DNA of 64,000 nucleotides, taken from positions 682,001-746,000 of the forward strand of contig NZ_JAAFZB010000095.1 of assembly GCF_010692725.1 (NCBI RefSeq). The letters are read 5' to 3'. The position numbers and the translations under genes were made by a program. The notes beneath the pieces are model-generated. The model did not search any database. It was not told the DNA's origin and saw only the letters and a list, made by a program, of their open reading frames with translations. The DNA is from Flavihumibacter soli. Lineage in GTDB: Bacteria > Bacteroidota > Bacteroidia > Sphingobacteriales > Sphingobacteriaceae. Positions 2,304-11,944 of the stretch are shown piece by piece (position 1 is the first letter of the stretch; each line of letters starts with the position of its first letter).

Positions 2304-4049
2304 TTAGTTTACCGTTTTGATCTTCAGTTCATCCAGTTGTTTCTGATCGATAACAGATGGCGAATCGATCATAACATCCCTTCCGGAGTTGTTTTTCGGG
2401 AAGGCTATCACGTCGCGGATAGAATCAAGGCCGGCGAAGATAGACACCAGGCGGTCGAAACCGAAGGCTATACCACCGTGCGGCGGCGCGCCGTACTCGA
2501 AAGCGTCCATCAGGAAACCGAACTGGTTCTGAGCTTCTACATCGCTGAATCCAAGATGCTTGAACATCAGGGCCTGTAAAGCACGGTCATGGATACGGAT
2601 AGAACCACCACCTATCTCGGTACCGTTGATCACCATATCATAAGCGTTGGCTCTTACTTCACCGGGCTTCGTGTCAAGCAGCGCAATATCTTCCGGCTTA
2701 GGAGATGTGAACGGATGATGCATCGCGTGATAGCGGCCTTTCTCTTCATCCCATTCCAGTAAAGGGAAATCGAGTACCCATAGAGGCGCAAAAGTATTCT
2801 TATCGCGTAAGCCCAGTCGGGTACCCATTTCGAGACGAAGCTCATTCAGTTGTTTCCGTACTTTCTCGGTTGTGCCTGCCAATACCAGTACCAAATCTCC
2901 TGGGGCAGTACTGAATGCAGCAGACCATTTCTGCAGCTCTGCTTCATTGTAAAACTTATCCACGGACGATTTCAATGTTCCGTCGGCATTATGACGCATA
3001 TAGATGAGTCCGGTGGCACCGATCTGCGGACGTTTGATGTAGTCTGTCAGTTCATCCAGCTGCTTGCGTGTATATTCGGCAGCGCCCTTCGCGTTGATTC
3101 CAACAACAAGTTCGGCGTTGTCGAAAACGGGAAAACCTAAGCCTTTCACGATGTCATTCAATTCGACAAACTTCATCTCAAAGCGGGTATCCGGCTTATC
3201 TGATCCGTACAGTCGCATTGCATCTGCGTAGTCCATTCTTGGTACTTCGGCAAGGTCTACCCCCTTTACATTCTTAAATAACTGGCGTATTAGCCCTTCG
3301 AAGACGTTCAGGATATCTTCCTGCTCGATGAATGCCATCTCGCAATCTATCTGTGTAAATTCAGGCTGCCTGTCTGCGCGAAGATCCTCATCCCGGAAAC
3401 ACTTCACTATCTGGAAATAACGGTCGAAGCCGGACACCATCAACAATTGCTTGAATGTCTGCGGCGATTGTGGCAATGCATAGAATTCGCCCGCGTTCAT
3501 ACGGCTTGGAACCACGAAATCGCGTGCGCCTTCGGGAGTTGATTTGATCAGCACCGGAGTTTCTACTTCAATAAAGTCCAGACCGTCGAGGTATTTACGG
3601 ATCTCCTGGGCCATTTTGTGGCGAAGTACCAGGTTATTGCGGACAGGATTACGACGAAGATCCAGGTAACGGTACTTCATACGAAGGTCGTCCCCGCCAT
3701 CGGTTTCGTCTTCTATCATGAAGGGTGGCAGCTTTGCCGAGTTCAGGATCTCCAGCGAGCCTACCTTGATCTCAATCTCACCGGTCGGGATCTTCAGGTT
3801 CTTGCTGGAACGCTCGATCACCTTGCCGGTCACTTTTATAACGAATTCTCGACCTAATTCGCGGGCCTGTGCTCTTAATGAAGCATTATCTTCAGAATCA
3901 AAGGTTAGTTGGGTAATGCCGTAACGGTCACGCATATCGACGAATGTCATACCACCCAGATCACGTGATTTTTGTACCCATCCGGAAAGAATGACTTCTT
4001 TCCCTAAATCGTTTATACTTAATTCCCCGCAGGTATGACTTCTGTGCAT
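2304..4049 (-). CDS. aspS: Aspartate--tRNA ligase
   Basis: Class II aminoacyl-tRNA synthetase that charges tRNA-Asp in the cytoplasm. The N-terminal OB-fold anticodon domain ([30 protein letters not shown]) covers roughly residues 1-105. The catalytic core carries motif 2 ([19 protein letters not shown]), a GAD-like insertion in the middle, and motif 3 near the C-terminus ([11 protein letters not shown]). At 581 residues it has the usual bacterial length. I place the start at the ATG at 4049 ([10 protein letters not shown]); a TTG nine codons upstream is in frame but adds residues not expected for the family. The promoter should lie in 4050-4190, divergent from the riboswitch unit. Confidence 0.97.
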
Positions 4050-4196
4050 TTCAGTATGAATTATAAATTCCTGCAAAAGTATGATTTTTGGCGATAATGC
4101 CTAAGCCCTGGCCGCGTGCAATCATGATGATCCACTCCTTATTTCTTTAATTTTTACTGCATTTAACGGGATGCAGTCGAAATCAAATATTCGTAC

Positions 4197-4204
4197 TACC
4201 TTTG
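4197..4204 (+). promoter_or_regulatory. Bacteroidota -7 element (TACCTTTG)
   Basis: TACCTTTG matches the TAnnTTTG -7 consensus of Bacteroidota sigma-ABfr. It sits 12 bases before the riboswitch core, the right place for transcription to start just ahead of the aptamer. No clear TTG -33 element is visible. Confidence 0.5.
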
Positions 4205-4215
4205 CGGTATCAATT

Positions 4216-4383
4216 AGGGGTGCCTTGTTTGCGATATCAAACACAAAAACGGGCTGAGAACATACCCATTGGGAGTTGTAAGTAATAAGTGGTAAGTACT
4301 AAGTTCTACGTATAACGCTTAGCTACATCACTGCAAGCCACAACTCTCATACACCTGATCCGGATAATGCCGGCGTAGGGAAA
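4216..4383 (+). promoter_or_regulatory. TPP (THI-box) riboswitch
   Basis: All conserved blocks of the thiamine pyrophosphate aptamer are present in order: AGGGGTGCC (4216-4224), GGGCTGAGA (4251-4259) with ATACCC (4262-4267), and ACCTGATC-CGGATAATGCCGGCGTAGGGAA (about 4353-4382). The variable P3 extension is unusually long (about 75 nt). It is closed by GAGTTGT (4273-4279) with ACAACTC (4340-4346) and filled with an AAGTAATAAGTGGTAAG-type dispersed repeat. No strong terminator separates it from the GTG start at 4452, so control may act on translation or on a weaker structure in 4384-4450. High TPP should switch the downstream genes off. Confidence 0.97.
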
Positions 4384-4451
4384 GGTAAAAGTTAAAATTA
4401 TCTGCATACAACCCCTCTTATGCAGGATGTTTAACTAATTATTTAAAAATA

Positions 4452-6815
4452 GTGAAAAACTTACTTACGATCACCTGCCTGGTAATGCTGTTACCTGCCA
4501 TCGCTGTTGCACAGTTCTCTGCAGGCGGAAAGATCACTGACAAAGACACGGGACTACCGCTTGCCGGGGCAACCGTTAATCTGAACAATTCCCTGGTCAG
4601 CGTTCAGACCAATGCGGGAGGAAACTTTAATTTCCAAAACCTGAAGCCGGGCGTGTACAGGTTCAAGGCATCGTTCCTGGGTTATAAATCCCTGGAGAAA
4701 ACCGTTCAGGTTAGCAAGGACGAAACTCTTAGCCTCCAGCTTGAGCAAACACATCTTCTGGCTGAAGAGGTTGTGGTTTATGCGACGCGGGCATCCGCTA
4801 ATTCGGCGAACACTTACCAGAATATCAGTAAAGAGGATATTGAAAAGAAGAACCTCGGTCAGGATCTGCCCTACCTTCTGAACCAGACTCCTTCGGCTGT
4901 GATCACTTCCGATGCCGGGGCAGGGATTGGGTATACAGGCATCCGTATCCGCGGGAGCGACCCTGCGCGGATCAATATGACCATTAATGGCATTCCCTAT
5001 AACGATTCCGAGAGCCAGGGAACCTTTCTGGTCAACTTGCCTGACCTTGCTTCGTCCATCAATAATATCCAGATCCAGCGGGGAGTGGGTACTTCAACAA
5101 ACGGCGCCGGTGCCTTTGGCGCAAGTATGAATATCCAGACGAACGGCCGCCGCGATTCCGCCTATGCTGAATTGAACAATACCTTTGGTTCTTTTAACAC
5201 ACTTAAAAATACGGTTAACCTGGGTACCGGTGTGATCAATAAGTTCAGCTTCGACGGCCGTCTTTCAAGGATCAATTCCGACGGCTATATCGACCGGGCA
5301 TCATCGCGATTAAAATCATATTTCCTCAGTGCTGCTTACTACGGCAAGAAGAGTCTCCTGCGGGCCAATGTGTTTTCGGGAACGGAGAAGACCTACCAGG
5401 CATGGAATGGTGTTCCGGAGAGCATGCTTGAAAGCAACCGGACCTATAATGGTTTTACCTATGACGACCAGACGGACAATTACACACAAGATCATTACCA
5501 GCTATTATACTCCCATTCCTTTTCTCCAAAGATCTCCGCCAATGCAGCCTTGCATTACACGAGAGGCCGCGGTTATTACGAGGAGTATAAGGAAGACGCT
5601 GGTTTGGCCGATTACGGAATAGAGAACGTTGTTATCGGCGGAGAAACGATTGAGTCATCAGATCTGATTCGCCGGCGCTGGCTGGATAATGATTTTTACG
5701 GAGCCACCTATTCCCTGATCTATACGCCGTCCCGTAATTTCAATGTTACCCTGGGCGGTGCCTATAACGAATACGACGGCGGTCATTTCGGTGAGGTTAT
5801 CTGGGCGCAGTACGCATCCAACAGCAGTATCCGGGAGCGCTACTATGACGGAACTGGTTTTAAGACTGACTTCAATATCTACGGAAAAGCTTCTTACGAG
5901 GCCGGAAAGGCAACCCTGTTTGCAGACCTGCAATACCGACGCCTTGGATATAGCATCGGCGGGACGGACAAAAACCGGAACCCCCTGGATGTCACTGACA
6001 AGCTGGATTTCTTCAATCCAAAGGTAGGCATCAGTTACCGCCTCGGTGAGCACAGCAATGTGTATGCTTCCTATGCGGTAGCAAACAAAGAGCCGAACCG
6101 GGATGATTATGTCAACGCATTGAACATTATCCCTCAATCAGAAAACCTGCAGAATATTGAAGCGGGATACCGTACCGCGTTCCAGAACTTCAGTGCCGGT
6201 TTGAACGGCTATGCGATGTTTTACAAAGATCAGCTGGTGCTGACAGGGAAGGTGAATGATGTTGGTGAATACATTCGTCAGAACGTACCGGAAAGTCACC
6301 GCTTAGGCCTTGAGTTGGACGGCAAATGGCAGATCAGCAATAAGTTCTACTGGTCGGCGGCAGCAGCTCTAAGCCGCAACAAGATCAGGAATTTTACCGA
6401 ATACATCGACGATTATGATAATGGCACACAGATCCAAAATGATTATACGGATACCGATATAGCTTTTTCTCCTGCATTCGTTGGTTCCAGCGAACTAGGA
6501 TTTAAGCCTGTTCCCAATACGGAGATCGCGCTGATTAGCAAATATGTGAGCAAACAGTATTTGGATAATACCTCCAATAACAGTCGTGCAATCGACCCCT
6601 TCTTTGTTAACGATCTTCGCTTAAGTTATATGACTGCTTTTAAGCCTGTTAAGAATATCGGATTAACGCTTCTGGTTAATAATGTTTTCGGGCAGCTATA
6701 TGAAACCAATGGCTACACATTCAGCTATGTTTACGAAGCGGTGCCAACAACCGAAAATTACTACTATCCGCAAGCTAAGCAGAACTTCCTGCTGTCGTTA
6801 GGTCTGAAGTTTTAA
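4452..6815 (+). CDS. TonB-dependent receptor under TPP riboswitch (probable thiamine/thiamine-phosphate receptor)
   Basis: A 787-residue outer-membrane receptor with signal peptide (residues 1-20, ending AVAQ). A carboxypeptidase-regulatory-like domain follows (about 25-100, GGKITDKDTGLPLAGATV), then a plug with DLPYLLNQTPSAV, GIRIRGSD and INNIQIQRGVGTSTNGAG, and a 22-strand-type barrel ending in FLLSLGLKF. It starts with GTG. Substrate is inferred from the TPP riboswitch directly upstream and the thiamine-related genes downstream. Riboswitch-controlled thiamine receptors of this kind are known in Bacteroidota (for example OMthi of Bacteroides). Barrel specificity itself cannot be read from the sequence. 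Confidence 0.88.
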   Translation: MKNLLTITCLVMLLPAIAVAQFSAGGKITDKDTGLPLAGATVNLNNSLVSVQTNAGGNFNFQNLKPGVYRFKASFLGYKSLEKTVQVSKDETLSLQLEQTHLLAEEVVVYATRASANSANTYQNISKEDIEKKNLGQDLPYLLNQTPSAVITSDAGAGIGYTGIRIRGSDPARINMTINGIPYNDSESQGTFLVNLPDLASSINNIQIQRGVGTSTNGAGAFGASMNIQTNGRRDSAYAELNNTFGSFNTLKNTVNLGTGVINKFSFDGRLSRINSDGYIDRASSRLKSYFLSAAYYGKKSLLRANVFSGTEKTYQAWNGVPESMLESNRTYNGFTYDDQTDNYTQDHYQLLYSHSFSPKISANAALHYTRGRGYYEEYKEDAGLADYGIENVVIGGETIESSDLIRRRWLDNDFYGATYSLIYTPSRNFNVTLGGAYNEYDGGHFGEVIWAQYASNSSIRERYYDGTGFKTDFNIYGKASYEAGKATLFADLQYRRLGYSIGGTDKNRNPLDVTDKLDFFNPKVGISYRLGEHSNVYASYAVANKEPNRDDYVNALNIIPQSENLQNIEAGYRTAFQNFSAGLNGYAMFYKDQLVLTGKVNDVGEYIRQNVPESHRLGLELDGKWQISNKFYWSAAAALSRNKIRNFTEYIDDYDNGTQIQNDYTDTDIAFSPAFVGSSELGFKPVPNTEIALISKYVSKQYLDNTSNNSRAIDPFFVNDLRLSYMTAFKPVKNIGLTLLVNNVFGQLYETNGYTFSYVYEAVPTTENYYYPQAKQNFLLSLGLKF

Positions 6816-6885
6816 TAACATAATTATCACATAATCTTAAATATTCATTACCGATATTAGCCCGATTTAAAATCAATATATAATA

Positions 6886-8520
6886 ATGAAGATCCGGAAT
6901 TTACTCATTGCTTTTTTAATCCCACTCAGTGTTTTTGCCCAAAAGAATAAACCTTCAGACCTGCCCCGTCCTAAATTGGTTGTCGGTATTATGGTTGACC
7001 AGATGCGATGGGATTATTTATATCGCTATTATAACAGGTATGAAAACGGGGGGTTTAAGAGAATGCTGAACGAAGGGTTTTCTGCTGAGAATACCCAGAT
7101 CGATTATGCAACCACGGTGACCGCAATAGGGCACACAACGGTATACACAGGCTCGGTACCTGCTTTTCATGGTATTGCAGGGAATGAGTTCATTAACCAG
7201 GCAACCGGACAGGTGATGTATTGCGCAGGCGACACTACCGTTCAGACGGTGGGCAGCACTTCGAAGGCTGGTCAGATGTCACCGCGGAATTTACTGACCA
7301 CTACTATTACAGATGAATTGAAGCTAGCGACAAACTTCCGTTCAAAGGTGATTGGAATCGCGTTGAAGGACCGCGGAGGTATTTTACCTGCCGGCCATTC
7401 CGCAAACGCCGCGTACTGGTTCGACGATGCGAGCGGTGGCTGGATCAGCTCAACGTATTACATGCAGGATTTGCCGGACTGGGTTAAAAAATTGAACGCG
7501 CGCAAACTTCCGGAGCATTACCTGAAACAGGATTGGAAAACGCTCTATCCCGAGAATACCTATCTTCAGAGCTCGGCTGATGACAATCGTTATGAAGGGA
7601 AGTTCTCCGGGACTACCATCAGCACCCTTCCGCTGAACACTTCCGAACTCATGAAAAAGAGCGTGAGTATTATCCGCAGCACACCCTATGGAAATTCGAT
7701 CACGCTTGATATGGCTAAAGCTGCCATTGATAACGAAAACCTGGGTGAGGGCGACGTGACAGACTTTCTAGCCCTGAGTTTCTCATCAACGGACTATATC
7801 GGCCATCAGATGGGACCAAACTCGATGGAAGTTGAAGATATTTATTTACGTCTTGACCGCGATATCGCCAACCTGCTTAGCTTCCTCGACAAGAAGCTCG
7901 GAAAAGGTAATTATACCACCTTTTTAACTGCGGATCATGGTGTAGCCCATAACCCGAACTTCCTTAATGATAATAAGATCCCTGCAGGCTTCTGGCCGAC
8001 CAGCCAGGTATTGAAAAGCCTGAACACGGAACTGGAAACAGCGTTCAAGGTTAAGAACCTTGTGCTCAGCTTCGGCGGCTATCAGGTAAGTTTAAATAAC
8101 AAGCTGATCGCTTCCGAGAAACTGAACGAAACAGAGATCCGTAAGGCGGCTGTTAATTTCCTGAAGACTCAGCCGGGAGTGGCTTTTGCGATTGATATCG
8201 ACCAAATTCAAACCGCGGCCATTCCGCAATTATTGAAGGAGAGGATCGTTAACGCTTATAACCGTGAACGGAGCGGCGTGATCCAGATCATTCTCAAGCC
8301 CGGATACTACAGTGGCTATAGCGCCACCGGAGCAACCCATGGTTCCTGGAATCCATACGACTCGCATATACCGCTTGTGTTCATGGGATGGGGAATTAAC
8401 CACGGTAAGTCTTACTCGCCTACCGGGATGACCGACATCGCTGCCACGCTTGCCGCTCTTCTTAGAATCCAGATGCCGAATGGCAGTATCGGTAAACCTA
8501 TAGGCGAAGCCATCAAGTAA
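6886..8520 (+). CDS. PafA-type alkaline phosphatase
   Basis: A 544-residue exported enzyme of the alkaline phosphatase superfamily; the signal peptide ends near VFAQ. Metal and catalytic motifs: GIMVDQMRWDY, the Thr nucleophile region TTVTAIGHTTVYTGSVPA, the K-x-R pair in ALKDRGGILPAGH that marks PafA phosphomonoesterases, STDYIGHQMGP, LTADHGV and GATHGSWNP. PafA enzymes remove phosphate from many monoesters in the periplasm. It lies 70 bp after the thiamine-type receptor, so a plausible role is dephosphorylating TMP/TPP brought in by that receptor before inner-membrane uptake; that role is inference. No inner-membrane thiamine transporter (PnuT, ThiT or ABC) is in this cluster. Confidence 0.88.
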   Translation: MKIRNLLIAFLIPLSVFAQKNKPSDLPRPKLVVGIMVDQMRWDYLYRYYNRYENGGFKRMLNEGFSAENTQIDYATTVTAIGHTTVYTGSVPAFHGIAGNEFINQATGQVMYCAGDTTVQTVGSTSKAGQMSPRNLLTTTITDELKLATNFRSKVIGIALKDRGGILPAGHSANAAYWFDDASGGWISSTYYMQDLPDWVKKLNARKLPEHYLKQDWKTLYPENTYLQSSADDNRYEGKFSGTTISTLPLNTSELMKKSVSIIRSTPYGNSITLDMAKAAIDNENLGEGDVTDFLALSFSSTDYIGHQMGPNSMEVEDIYLRLDRDIANLLSFLDKKLGKGNYTTFLTADHGVAHNPNFLNDNKIPAGFWPTSQVLKSLNTELETAFKVKNLVLSFGGYQVSLNNKLIASEKLNETEIRKAAVNFLKTQPGVAFAIDIDQIQTAAIPQLLKERIVNAYNRERSGVIQIILKPGYYSGYSATGATHGSWNPYDSHIPLVFMGWGINHGKSYSPTGMTDIAATLAALLRIQMPNGSIGKPIGEAIK

Positions 8521-8546
8521 TTTTCCCAATCAAAATAACGTCTGTT

Positions 8547-9182
8547 TTGAAAAAATATATATCCACATTCCACTATCTCACCCAGGACCTTCCGCACCGC
8601 AGCCACGCCGAGCAGGTACAGATGGCCTGTGAGGCTGGCGCAAACTGGATCCAGTACCGATGCCTGAGTAAACCGGATGCGGAGATGATACCCGAGATAC
8701 ACGAGGTTGCCGCTATTTGCGATGACTGGGGTGTTACACTTATTCTGACAGACCACTATCATCTTCTTGACCAGGTGGATGCGCAGGGCGTCCACCTGGA
8801 AGATATGAATGCCGATTTTGCTGCTGTACGCGCGATCATCACGGATGAGAAAACATTAGGTGCCTCCGCCAATTCATTTGCCGATATCCTGCGAATAGCT
8901 AATAGCGGGGTAGTGGATTATGCTGGCTGCGGTCCCTTTGCATTAACCCACACCAAGCCCAATGATTACCCTCTTCTGGGCTTGGCGGGCTACCGCGAGA
9001 TCACCGGGCAGATGAAACAAGCAGGCATAGACCTTCCATTGTTGGCTGTAGGCGGTATTCAGATCCCCGATGTGGAGGAGCTGATGAAGACCGGGGTATT
9101 TGGGATTGCAGTTTCAGCGGCGGTAAACCTGGCTGATGATCCACAAGATGCCTTCCGTCAGATCTACCGAAAGATTGTATAG
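8547..9182 (+). CDS. Thiamine phosphate synthase-like protein (ThiE/TenI fold)
   Basis: A 211-residue TIM-barrel protein read from a TTG start 26 bp after the phosphatase. ThiE landmarks in order: WIQYRCL, LILTDHYHLL, GVHLEDMN, GASANS, DYAGCGPFALTHTKPNDY, LLAVGGIQIPDVEELMKTGVFGIAVSAAV. ThiE joins HMP-PP and THZ-P to make TMP. Compared with the classic pattern it keeps the pyrophosphate-binding T-x-T-K block but shows RCL where R-x-K is usual and TD where ND is usual. It could be a divergent ThiE or a TenI-like relative. It is co-directional with the TPP riboswitch unit. Confidence 0.75.
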   Translation: MKKYISTFHYLTQDLPHRSHAEQVQMACEAGANWIQYRCLSKPDAEMIPEIHEVAAICDDWGVTLILTDHYHLLDQVDAQGVHLEDMNADFAAVRAIITDEKTLGASANSFADILRIANSGVVDYAGCGPFALTHTKPNDYPLLGLAGYREITGQMKQAGIDLPLLAVGGIQIPDVEELMKTGVFGIAVSAAVNLADDPQDAFRQIYRKIV

Positions 9183-9215
9183 CGCTTTCTAACAATCCTT
9201 CGTTATTTTTGCTGG

Positions 9216-9782
9216 ATGTCGTCTCACCACATTGTCCGTGAAAAACAGGAGCCGGGGCTCCTCATCATGAGTCTCGATGGCTTTCTTTCCGAGAACCTGG
9301 GTCAGCTGCTCGAATGGAGCCCGACGGTAATTGTAGCGGAGGACATGTATGAGCACACGGAATCCCTGGGTATTAAGATCGACGGCGTTATTACTTCAGA
9401 CGGTGAGTTTTCTGTTCAGGAAAGCACACGAATAATATCAGCTACTGCTAACCAGCTTGAAGATGCACTGAAATTCTTCGTTGGTGAGCAATTTTCGGCA
9501 GTCAACATTGTAACCAATGAATTCGCTTTGAAGGATTACGCGGTCTATGAAGCTGATATTAACCTCGTTATATTTATCTCAAACCATAAGATCTTTCCGA
9601 TTCACTCCGGATTCAGTAAGTGGCAGTCGGCGGGCGAGAAGATTGTACTCCTTCATGAAGTTCAGAATCTGCAAACTTCCGGATTGAATCACATCAGCGA
9701 GACGGTACTGGAAACCCAGAAAGACGGCTTCTATACCCTTACGTTTGATCAGCCCTTTCTATTCATCTCTGAGACGATCTAA
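9216..9782 (+). CDS. Degenerate thiamine pyrophosphokinase-like protein
   Basis: This 188-residue protein opens with SSHHIVREKQEP and LLGQLLEWSPTVIV, which I recognise as the N-terminus of Bacteroidota thiamine pyrophosphokinases; IFPIHSGFSKWQSAG also fits their second half. The residues that make the enzyme work appear lost: SDGEF stands where GDFD is expected, TANQLEDALKFF where a T-D-L-E-K-A block is expected, and no GxRxDH motif is found. TPK makes TPP from thiamine and ATP. This copy may be non-catalytic, perhaps a sensor or partner. A TATTTTTG element at 9204-9211 could give it its own start. The next gene begins 2 bp after its stop. Confidence 0.65.
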   Translation: MSSHHIVREKQEPGLLIMSLDGFLSENLGQLLEWSPTVIVAEDMYEHTESLGIKIDGVITSDGEFSVQESTRIISATANQLEDALKFFVGEQFSAVNIVTNEFALKDYAVYEADINLVIFISNHKIFPIHSGFSKWQSAGEKIVLLHEVQNLQTSGLNHISETVLETQKDGFYTLTFDQPFLFISETI

Positions 9783-9784
9783 TT

Positions 9785-10273
9785 ATGGTGATCCGTCAAG
9801 CATACTCTAACGATATTCCGGCAATCAGCCGGCTTGCACATGAAATCTGGTGGCCAACCTACTCCGGCGTGATATCTGACGAGCAGATATCTTTCATGCT
9901 GGAAAAGATGTATTCGGAGTCTGCTTTGAAAAGCCAGATGGAAGAAAATATTACTTTCCTGATTGTTGAAAGAGATGATCTGCCGGTAGCATTTGCTGGC
10001 TATTCATTCACTGAACCCGAGAATCATGTTTACAAAATCGAAAAGATTTACGTTCTCCCTTCAGAACAGGGACAGGGAACCGGGAAGAAGCTGATCATGA
10101 CGATCGCGGACATCGTCAGGGTACTGGGTGCCAAAACACTTGAGTTAAATGTGAACCGCGGGAATCCCGCTTTTTCTTTCTACCAGAAACTCGGTTTCGA
10201 GATCTACAAATTGGTCGATATCCCTTACCATCATTTTGTATTGAACGACTATATCATGCGTATCAGCTTATAG
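9785..10273 (+). CDS. GNAT family N-acetyltransferase
   Basis: A 162-residue acetyl-CoA-dependent acetyltransferase. The acetyl-CoA loop is IYVLPSEQGQGTGKKL, preceded by the typical N-terminal VIRQAYSNDIPAISRLAHEIW and followed by NVNRGNPAFSFYQKLGF. The C-terminal IPYHHFVLNDYIMRI resembles small GNATs of the RimI/diamine type. It begins 2 bp after the TPK-like gene and so is probably the last gene of the riboswitch unit. Substrate unknown. Confidence 0.85.
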   Translation: MVIRQAYSNDIPAISRLAHEIWWPTYSGVISDEQISFMLEKMYSESALKSQMEENITFLIVERDDLPVAFAGYSFTEPENHVYKIEKIYVLPSEQGQGTGKKLIMTIADIVRVLGAKTLELNVNRGNPAFSFYQKLGFEIYKLVDIPYHHFVLNDYIMRISL

Positions 10274-10277
10274 TAGT

Positions 10278-10466
10278 TCAGCCGAACTTGTTATAAACTC
10301 CGCTTGATTCATCCAGCCCGATATCGTCCTTTTGCTCTTCCAGCTCCTTATTCAAACAATGCTTTTCCAGGATCTCTTCGATCTTCTCAAAGGTGTCTAT
10401 GTCAAGCACCACCGCTATCTTATTGTTGTTTTCGTCCACAACAAATCTTTTACGAATGTTTATCAT
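10278..10466 (-). CDS. Small antitoxin-like protein (Phd/RelB-like), no toxin partner
   Basis: A 62-residue acidic protein: RKRFVVDENNNKIAVVLDI followed by an amphipathic helix (DTFEKIEEILEKHCLNKELEE) and an acidic tail. The pattern 'KRFVVDENGN-PIAVVLDI-T-FEKIEEIL' is typical of small type II antitoxins whose toxin gene normally follows. Here the downstream side is the convergent GNAT, 5 bp away, so no partner is present. It may be an orphan antitoxin or a free-standing regulator. Confidence 0.6.
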   Translation of the reverse strand: MINIRKRFVVDENNNKIAVVLDIDTFEKIEEILEKHCLNKELEEQKDDIGLDESSGVYNKFG

Positions 10467-10491: not shown

Positions 10492-10525
10492 CTAAAAGTC
10501 AGAGAGTGCGATCTCTGACTTTTAG
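10492..10525. terminator. Perfect 14-bp hairpin
   Basis: CTAAAAGTCAGAGA (10492-10505), loop GTGCGA, TCTCTGACTTTTAG (10512-10525). It lies upstream of the antitoxin-like gene and downstream of the M28 peptidase. It may be a terminator or a structured leader of the small gene. Confidence 0.6.
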
Positions 10526-10651: not shown

Positions 10652-11944
10652 CTATTTCTCCAGCTTCGGTATCCGCTTCGGAGCTTCTTTTCCCGCAACA
10701 ATGCTTCTTGAACTTAAGGCGATCGCTTTAATAGTGGCTGTCACGTTCTGCATGTCCAGTGTTGAGAATTCATCACCAACAGTGTGGTAGAATTTATCTG
10801 TGTCTATCTGATCCGTTGAGATAGTATGTGCCGGAACGCCTAGAGCAGCTAAGGTAGCATTATCACTCCTGTAGAAGAGGTTTTGTTTAGGATAAGGGTC
10901 CGGGTGGAATGTAAACGCCGTACCTTCCAGGTTGCGCTGAAGGATCTGCCCGAAGTCCGATTTCTCATAACCGGTGATAAAAGCGGCGTTCCTGCCGAAC
11001 TTGGATTCTTTACCGATCATCTCGATATTGAACATTGCCACCACGTCATCCGGGTTTAACTGCTCGGAGAAGTGCTTGGAGCCAAAGCCGCCGATCTCTT
11101 CCGCGGTGAAGGCAACGAATATCAATGTGCGCTCGTTGTTGTTCAGCTTCTTGTAAAAACGCGCCAGGCTGATAACAGCGGTAACGCCTGATGCATCGTC
11201 GTCAGCTCCATTGGCAATGGTGTCTGCCTTTCCTTTTACGATTCCCAGATGATCATAGTGACCGCTGAAAACGACCAGCTCCTTTTCTTTTGATTTTCCG
11301 GGAATCATGCCCGCCACATTCGACAGCGGAAGTGTTTCAACAACATTAGTCAGATTCAGGGAAAATGTCTTCGCATCATCCGTACCCAAAAGGAACACCT
11401 TGGAGCTCCCTTCCTTCACTTCATTTACAATCTTACCACGTTTGCTGAACTCATAAAGTCTTTTAAAAGCATCCGCATGTGAAGCATCAACGAACACAAT
11501 CGCTGATTTATTAGCCCGGCTTATTGCGCGGTAACGGTCAAAGAAGGTCTCACCAGCCTTTACCTGTATTACTTCTACATCAGATTTTTCTGTCCAGTTC
11601 ACCGCGGCATTCTCCGTCACGGCCAGCACCTGGTTATCCGCGAGGGCCTTGCCATTAACCGATACATTGTAGGCACCCGGCCTGATCCGTGTCATTGTAA
11701 ACGATTGCCGGAAGTTGTCAGCCCCATTCAAGGGTTGAAGTCCAATGCTTTTAAACTCACCCTCGATAAAGCTGGCGGCCTTTTCGATGCCCGGCGTAAA
11801 GGTGCCGCGACCCTGCATATCGTCTGCTGAGAGCGTGCGAACGATTCTTTCAACACTGCTTTGTGTTACTGCGCGGTCGATGTTTTGCACTTTGCATGCC
11901 GACAACGCGAGCAGCGACAACAGTACAGTTCCTGTTCTTTTCAT
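10652..11944 (-). CDS. M28 family metallopeptidase, lipoprotein
   Basis: A 430-residue exported aminopeptidase-type protein. The signal ends in the lipobox LSAC (Cys17), so it is lipid-anchored. An N-terminal segment with a PA-like insertion is followed by the zinc peptidase core: SGHYDHLG, ANGADDDASGV, TAEEIGGFGSKHF, FNIEMIG, and the last ligand region TISTDQIDTDKFYHTVGDE. These contain the His/Asp/Glu ligands of the two-zinc site. It probably trims peptides in the periplasm or at the surface. It lies 48 bp downstream of the M61 peptidase gene in the same orientation, so the two may be one peptide-degrading unit. Confidence 0.9.
   Translation of the reverse strand: MKRTGTVLLSLLALSACKVQNIDRAVTQSSVERIVRTLSADDMQGRGTFTPGIEKAASFIEGEFKSIGLQPLNGADNFRQSFTMTRIRPGAYNVSVNGKALADNQVLAVTENAAVNWTEKSDVEVIQVKAGETFFDRYRAISRANKSAIVFVDASHADAFKRLYEFSKRGKIVNEVKEGSSKVFLLGTDDAKTFSLNLTNVVETLPLSNVAGMIPGKSKEKELVVFSGHYDHLGIVKGKADTIANGADDDASGVTAVISLARFYKKLNNNERTLIFVAFTAEEIGGFGSKHFSEQLNPDDVVAMFNIEMIGKESKFGRNAAFITGYEKSDFGQILQRNLEGTAFTFHPDPYPKQNLFYRSDNATLAALGVPAHTISTDQIDTDKFYHTVGDEFSTLDMQNVTATIKAIALSSRSIVAGKEAPKRIPKLEK

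Follow-up and report, generated by a model that had tools for sequence, protein, structure and literature searches.

What does a bacterium gain from keeping a phosphatase and two proteins that resemble thiamine enzymes behind a thiamine pyrophosphate (TPP) riboswitch, if the catalytic residues expected of such enzymes are largely gone? The question is raised by a locus of Flavihumibacter soli (assembly GCF_010692725.1, contig NZ_JAAFZB010000095.1, positions 682,001 to 746,000 of the forward strand), a stretch of 64,000 nucleotides referred to here as the window. A TPP aptamer is followed by five genes on the + strand, with intergenic gaps of 70, 26, 33 and 2 bases in the open reading frame (ORF) layout of the window. 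We consider it fairly probable that the locus is an operon with which Sphingobacteriaceae acquire thiamine under the control of a TPP riboswitch, and that it includes a pseudo-thiamin pyrophosphokinase (pseudo-TPK) and a remodelled ThiE paralogue. The sequence shows the aptamer, the gene order and its recurrence, the fold, the motif losses and the gene absences, whereas a single transcript, the substrates, periplasmic hydrolysis and ligand binding are inferred. The features of the locus, in positions of the window, are as follows.

4206 to 4398, + strand: TPP riboswitch aptamer (THI element); RF00059, 41.2 bits, E 7.7e-7, full model 1-105
4270 to 4349, + strand: extended P3 stem within the aptamer; RNA fold, relatives' P3 also long with unlike arms
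4401 to 4426, + strand: hairpin of 8 bp after the aptamer and ahead of the start codon; seen on folding 4206-4452 as RNA (z -2.25)
4452 to 6815, + strand: TonB-dependent outer-membrane receptor; GTG start, PF00593 73.6 bits, PF07715 45.1 bits, CarbopepD_reg_2
6886 to 8520, + strand: PafA-type alkaline phosphatase; start resembling a signal peptide, 772.3 bits with NCBIfam alk_phos_PafA (cut-off 650)
8547 to 9182, + strand: ThiE-like protein with altered diphosphate/metal site; TTG start, PF02581 135.6 bits
9216 to 9782, + strand: TPK-fold protein without TPK catalytic motifs (putative pseudo-TPK); AlphaFold2 model, mean predicted local distance difference test (pLDDT) 92.7, Foldseek matches to TPKs
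9785 to 10273, + strand: GNAT-family acetyltransferase; PF00583, 57.4 bits against 20.7

The Pfam families recognized across the unit are the TonB receptor with its plug, Phosphodiest, TMP-TENI and GNAT. The TPK-like protein has no Pfam or NCBIfam match, and sequence libraries were uninformative about it. Its predicted model was built from 58 aligned sequences. In a fold search with this model, named thiamin pyrophosphokinases occupied 21 of the 25 top Protein Data Bank (PDB) ranks and chains of lp_1622 the remaining four; the best match was 2omk (E 1.8e-12, TM 0.76 by query). The protein is thereby predicted to adopt the TPK fold. A chance label was considered and rejected, as the fold search returned TPKs although sequence searches had given nothing useful.

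The gene is widespread in the family. Among 101 sampled genomes, own genome included, the TPK-like gene is present in 81, each with a single copy. Locus counts are based on 80 of these 81 genes, window included, since an incomplete match in G043 was excluded. Two alignments were used, A1 with 36 of the 80 sequences and A2 with the window and 57 of the 80 loci. The 20 genomes without a TPK-like match were still empty with profile A1, in a search that had no positive genome in it. The nearest named relatives of the window protein are a Pedobacter sp. metagenome-assembled genome (77% identity) and Daejeonella species (61-65%).

The window protein lacks the motifs GDFD, TD, RADH and SSN, which we take to be the catalytic motifs of TPK, with roles as assigned in TPK structures. 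Neither GDFD nor R[AT]DH is found in any of the 80 family members. All 80 alignment rows show a deletion of the RADHT segment, and at least 79 of them carry a different residue in place of the SSN asparagine; one locus, L108, retains GDID. Most orthologues outside the family keep the set, with GDFD, TD and RADH in 20 of 23 and SSN in 19 (SN in 20). For one of these, L148, PF04263 gives 96 bits and the TPK equivalog 122. The proteins all begin with MSSHH and contain GQLLEWSP, both nearly unchanged. Decay of the gene was rejected on a median ratio of non-synonymous to synonymous substitution rates (dN/dS) of 0.08, computed for the 13 of 18 pairs with dS below 1.5, which indicates purifying selection. 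Only three family-specific conserved positions were gained, and this favours a function in binding or scaffolding over a newly evolved active site. Judged from its sequence, the TPK-like protein would be a selected pseudoenzyme that does not carry out its namesake reaction. Orthologues from another family of the same class (L160, L164, L168) have lost the TPK motifs as well, indicating that the loss is wider or older than the Sphingobacteriaceae.

The ThiE-like protein scores under both ThiE equivalog cut-offs (128.2 against 145.1 and 174.6 against 227). Columns were taken from an alignment with the B. subtilis ThiE PDB chain, with position numbers and roles as we assume them for that enzyme, including K61, N92, D93 and D112 as the diphosphate/metal residues. 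The window protein retains Q57, R59, D93, H107, S130, T156, T158 and K159. K61 is replaced by L, N92 by T and D112 by N, and the diphosphate/metal set hence reads L, T, D, N. Among 37 unit copies of relatives, just 4 retain K61 and 1 retains N92, and these belong to two divergent genera. The other ThiE proteins of the family keep K61, N92, D93 and D112 in all 16 rows (14 genes) examined, a comparison set picked by score or thiC linkage that leaves out weaker second PF02581 genes near thiC. The main-type unit copies (n=33, window included, with five rows of divergent genera kept separate) instead share the near-invariant residues C39 (32), K42 (32), T68 (33) and E85 (33). Because these new residues lie at or near the diphosphate site, the site appears to have been rebuilt. 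The window protein has Asn at the position aligned with ThiE H132, presumably that of the TenI catalytic histidine. As Asn is also found in 6 of 6 thiC-linked copies, it says little about TenI. The ThiE-like protein is probably a remodelled paralogue that would still bind a thiamine-type ligand.

Whether these altered proteins could be spared depends on what else the genomes encode. The own genome has no match to ThiC, TPK, PF04263 or ThiK, and no PF02581 gene beyond the unit ThiE-like gene among the matches listed. Across the 101 family genomes, ThiC was found in 39, TPK over the cut-off in none and ThiK over the cut-off in none, with weak ThiK matches in 7 and a positive E. coli control. ThiL is present in the own genome (305.4 bits) and exceeds the cut-off in 98 of 101 genomes, among them 59 of the 62 without ThiC. 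Two small, 99% complete genomes, G005 and G030, have neither ThiC nor TPK or ThiK over the cut-off, and no PF02581 gene among the matches listed. Both do carry ThiL and a TPP-TonB-PafA-TPK-like-GNAT unit. Another two, G010 and G033, keep ThiL without PafA, the TPK-like gene or, among the matches listed, a PF02581 gene; a 734-amino-acid ORF, TonB-receptor-like by eye, stands behind their TPP element. Thiamine monophosphate (TMP) therefore looks to be the obligate last intermediate. Its source looks to be either a thiamine kinase outside the known families or imported TMP, as far as gene content can tell. The missing kinase could also reflect models that overlook a divergent enzyme. In small-genome relatives (g11; L322, L323, L324), a lone ORF of 734-794 amino acids that is TonB-receptor-like by eye lies behind the only TPP match.

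The unit encodes no PnuT and no other inner-membrane thiamine transporter, as the first-pass annotation of this DNA had recognized. The single PnuC-family gene of the own genome adjoins an ORF resembling a NadR-type P-loop kinase, and its own score is that of a PnuC. Its identification as PnuT was rejected on this neighbour, read from its sequence, and on the PnuC score. A unit PnuT also exceeds the PnuC cut-off, and the PnuC identity is thus drawn mainly from the NadR-type neighbour.

The arrangement itself recurs across the family. A receptor lies upstream on the same strand in 38 of the 80 TPK-like loci. In 37 of these, a TPP motif is found within 500 bases before the receptor, and in the 38th the element is the RF00059 match G041:C3:319090-319222. 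The TPK-like gene is followed by a GNAT gene in 61 of 80 loci and preceded by a ThiE-like gene in 38 and by PafA in 31. The complete set of TPP motif, receptor, PafA, ThiE-like and GNAT gene is present in 11 of 80. Daejeonella oryzae (locus L198) is a culturable species that carries the full unit. Recurrence across 80 family loci indicates that the order is not due to chance. In seven loci (L068, L074, L075, L083, L085, L087, L091), the receptor is followed by a PnuT-type gene and an ORF of about 365-393 amino acids. An ORF of this kind also stands behind the PnuT-type gene in the TPP units L340 and L341, which brings the range to 362-393 amino acids. Two such ORFs were searched and carry an acyl-CoA dehydrogenase C-terminal domain; the closest PDB entries of one are flavin monooxygenases, Rv3094c among them. 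The acyl-CoA-dehydrogenase-fold ORF is possibly a thiamine-related oxygenase. At L125, L132 and L116, the TPK-like gene lies outside a thiamine unit, after an ORF read by eye as an M20-type amidohydrolase and before a GNAT gene.

PafA appears intact. Beyond its equivalog score, its nearest PDB comparison is 5tj3 (E 6e-186), and it matches the T, N, K and R of 5tj3 at the positions changed in 5too, which we take to be the catalytic residues of PafA. PafA is found in 89 of 101 family genomes, as one copy in 81 and two in 8. In at least 39 of the 89 PafA-bearing genomes, from many genera, it is co-directional with and no more than 8 kb from a unit-type gene, with gaps down to 4 bases. This count covers same-strand neighbours and uses hand-picked lists of ThiE (48 rows) and PnuT (20 rows); a PnuC-family neighbour of PafA on the opposite strand in G051 falls outside it. 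A quickly built PafA tree of 71 rows, including 36 unit copies of relatives plus the window, requires 12 changes of the unit label, 6 of them forced by starred branches, against a mean of 24.0 after shuffling. On this tree, PafA appears to have entered or left the unit repeatedly, and it is a favoured but optional member. Because 81 of the 89 genomes have no second PafA, the enzyme may also release phosphate more generally, and its optional membership lowers confidence in a thiamine-only role. Hydrolysis of TMP and TPP by PafA would be part of the proposed function.

The aptamer match spans the complete model. The conserved core of RF00059 (CTGAGA; ACCTGAT..GGATAATGCC.GCGTAGGGA) and the model helices are present. 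The E-value stems from a search of 401 bases, and the score of 41.2 bits stays below the Rfam gathering score of 54.3, a curated threshold rather than a biological trait. A gathering-level scan of the window therefore misses the aptamer and reports just a tRNA. The reading that no TPP aptamer exists was rejected, as the E-value scan recovers the element at full length. In a search of the whole own genome it is the sole TPP match (E 1.1e-5). The low score is probably explained by the extended P3 stem. P3 segments of relatives are 43-109 bases long in 21 of 25 cases, with unlike sequences, when cut with a simple pattern that mis-cut the other 4 to 2 bases. None of 10 scanned related unit loci reaches the gathering score either, and scans at that cut-off thus overlook the regulon. 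TPP binding and switching of expression by the aptamer are predicted from the RF00059 match, and the hairpin at 4401-4426 would be a possible expression platform. On the + strand, no terminator-like site was found between any of the five genes; the three matches fall within the GNAT gene (two) and the aptamer (one). The scan total of 5 compares with a shuffle mean of 6.5, i.e. no excess over shuffles. We infer that the five genes are carried on a single transcript.

Further TPP targets in the family were also inspected (20 of the listed matches), and no thiamine kinase was found among them. At L331 and L333, TPP matches over the cut-off sit just past the ends of glycine dehydrogenase-like ORFs and point back at them, with no target gene evident. 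The relative's locus L330 shows a TPP-led run ThiM-ThiE-ThiD-TenA, named by eye except for the PF02581 member.

These observations can be joined into a mechanism. Low cellular TPP would let the leader permit expression of the operon. The TonB receptor, for which thiamine as substrate is suggested by the preceding TPP element, would bring thiamine, and probably also its phosphate esters, across the outer membrane. Periplasmic PafA would remove phosphate from the thiamine esters, and thiamine (or TMP) would cross the inner membrane by a carrier encoded outside the operon. In the cytosol, ThiL would convert TMP to TPP. The ThiE-like protein and the pseudo-TPK might act as ligand-binding or regulatory partners, the ThiE-like protein alternatively as a new enzyme. 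More tentatively, and with somewhat less than even confidence, we suggest that the Sphingobacteriaceae abandoned TPK and kept it as a selected pseudoenzyme, often beside a rebuilt ThiE paralogue with a new reaction or ligand in a TPP-controlled operon. TPP would then be made solely via TMP and ThiL, with TMP from a thiamine kinase yet to be recognized or from external TMP/TPP made accessible by PafA.

Several observations weigh against the proposed acquisition operon. PafA is a general monoesterase. Within the genus of F. soli, two of the nine sampled genomes (G000, G067) have it as a unit member, among the matches listed; of the other seven, six carry the TPK-like gene with PafA elsewhere, and G056 has no TPK-like gene. 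The ThiE diphosphate/metal site is variable and not fully gone, since D93 is kept in 15 of 37 and D112 in 16 of 37 unit copies of relatives. The tie of the TPK-like gene to thiamine is not universal either, as 29 of 80 loci have no receptor, PafA or ThiE-like gene nearby (22 with GNAT only, 7 with nothing). For some such loci the remaining unit genes sit elsewhere, for example in G036 and G062 (L300, L301). The first-pass annotation had named absence of the phosphatase from the same order in related genomes as evidence against its account. This is true in part, given the 2 of 9 genomes in the own genus, the at least 39 of 89 PafA-bearing genomes in the family and the repeated moves on the PafA tree.

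Four rival explanations were weighed. PafA could be a general phosphatase and a mere passenger of the operon, with a position unrelated to thiamine esters. Its status as sole copy in most genomes, its repeated moves into and out of the unit and its location elsewhere in seven of the nine own-genus genomes agree with this. Its co-directional placement across many genera, with gaps as short as 4 bases, does not, and TPP control of a sole general phosphatase would be odd. We regard such a bystander role as a real if minor possibility. TMP could also be the imported form. The receptor would then take up TPP and TMP, PafA would trim TPP to TMP, a carrier would import TMP and ThiL would finish, leaving TPK useless and its site lost. 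The near-universal ThiL, including in genomes without ThiC, and the absence of any TPK or ThiK over the cut-off speak for this route. A monoesterase such as PafA should, however, also strip the phosphate of TMP, and the unit contains no known TMP carrier. PnuT is a carrier of free thiamine, and the PnuT-type gene in the unit of seven relatives thus speaks for thiamine itself. TMP import in this form seems rather unlikely.

The remaining alternatives assign catalysis to the two altered proteins. One of them could be the missing thiamine kinase, or could form TMP by a new reaction. The step from thiamine to TMP has no recognized enzyme in these genomes, and where the diphosphate site used to be, the ThiE-like protein does have near-invariant residues of a new kind. 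Nevertheless, small, 99% complete genomes keep ThiL without the ThiE-like gene (G005, G030) or without both genes (G010, G033), among the matches listed, and the TPK-like protein gained only three family-specific conserved positions. This makes either role quite improbable. Still less probable, in our judgement, is that both proteins work as their names suggest, the one as a TPK whose site has changed and the other as a functional ThiE; we regard this as very unlikely. The fold, the riboswitch context, the strong selection, the absence of another TPK in the family and the retention of D112 in a part of the unit ThiE copies would fit. The complete absence of GDFD and R[AT]DH, the deleted RADHT segment, the replaced asparagine of SSN and the loss of K61 and N92 in the ThiE-like protein argue against activity. 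The acquisition operon with a pseudo-TPK and a remodelled ThiE paralogue hence remains our preferred reading. It keeps the front half of the picture drawn by the first-pass annotation. The aptamer followed by five co-directional, closely spaced genes is borne out by the coordinates and the RF00059 match, a TPP-controlled thiamine unit with TonB receptor and PafA agrees with an intact-looking phosphatase, and the gene order recurs in other Sphingobacteriaceae, with a TPP element at all loci that have the receptor upstream. The back half was too simple. The ThiE-like and TPK-like proteins had been proposed to handle or sense the product; a role for them as ThiE- and TPK-type enzymes is not supported, as much of the diphosphate/metal site of the former and the catalytic motifs of the latter are absent.

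The closest described systems are the OMthi-pnuT-tnr3 thiamine transport operons of gut Bacteroidetes (PMC5613172). As in the operons described there, a TPP riboswitch stands directly before a TonB-type receptor and a TPK-fold gene is included, with PnuT in seven relatives. The receptor is a putative counterpart of OMthi (characterised example BT2390) by its TPP element and TonB family. In contrast to the published operons, PafA, the ThiE-like gene and GNAT are added, the own genome has no PnuT and the TPK motifs are lost, leaving the TPP-TonB front without PnuT or a catalytic TPK. The main text of PMC5613172 does not contain the word phosphatase. The window PafA resembles Flavobacteriia PafA (PDB 5tj3; NCBIfam NF042991) in equivalog score and in T, N, K and R, and differs in its placement in a TPP-riboswitch unit. 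With thiamin pyrophosphokinase (2omk; PF04263/PF04265; TIGR01378), the TPK-like protein shares the fold, and its N-terminal tail and GQLLEWSP are as in canonical TPKs of other Bacteroidota families. It differs in length (188 against about 220 residues), in the lost motifs and in the lack of a Pfam or NCBIfam match. The ThiE-like protein shares PF02581 and the pyrimidine- and thiazole-phosphate-side residues with ThiE/TenI, and departs from them in K61, N92, D112 and the H132-aligned Asn. The last protein of the unit contains a GNAT domain well above its cut-off. Searches of open-licence papers listed no description of such a unit, of PafA under TPP control or of TPK being lost in Sphingobacteriaceae.

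The unit is flanked by genes in opposite orientation. Upstream and divergent lies a 590-amino-acid ORF (2304-4076), which we take to encode aspartyl-tRNA synthetase. Downstream and convergent with the unit are an ORF for a RelB-like antitoxin on the - strand (10278-10466; PF18506, 69.6 bits) and then a 430-amino-acid ORF (10652-11944). One further feature lies past the end of the unit.

10492 to 10525, no strand assigned: 14-bp hairpin; terminator-like on the - strand scan, a consensus match only

The unit suggests a riboswitch-controlled route to external thiamine phosphates in these bacteria. Homologues of TPK and ThiE are the usual markers for scoring thiamine auxotrophs, and both names would mislead here because the genes lack residues that the two reactions require. 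Conversion of thiamine to TMP without a recognized enzyme becomes a concrete missing-enzyme question, which can be tested in culturable Daejeonella, Pedobacter and Mucilaginibacter.

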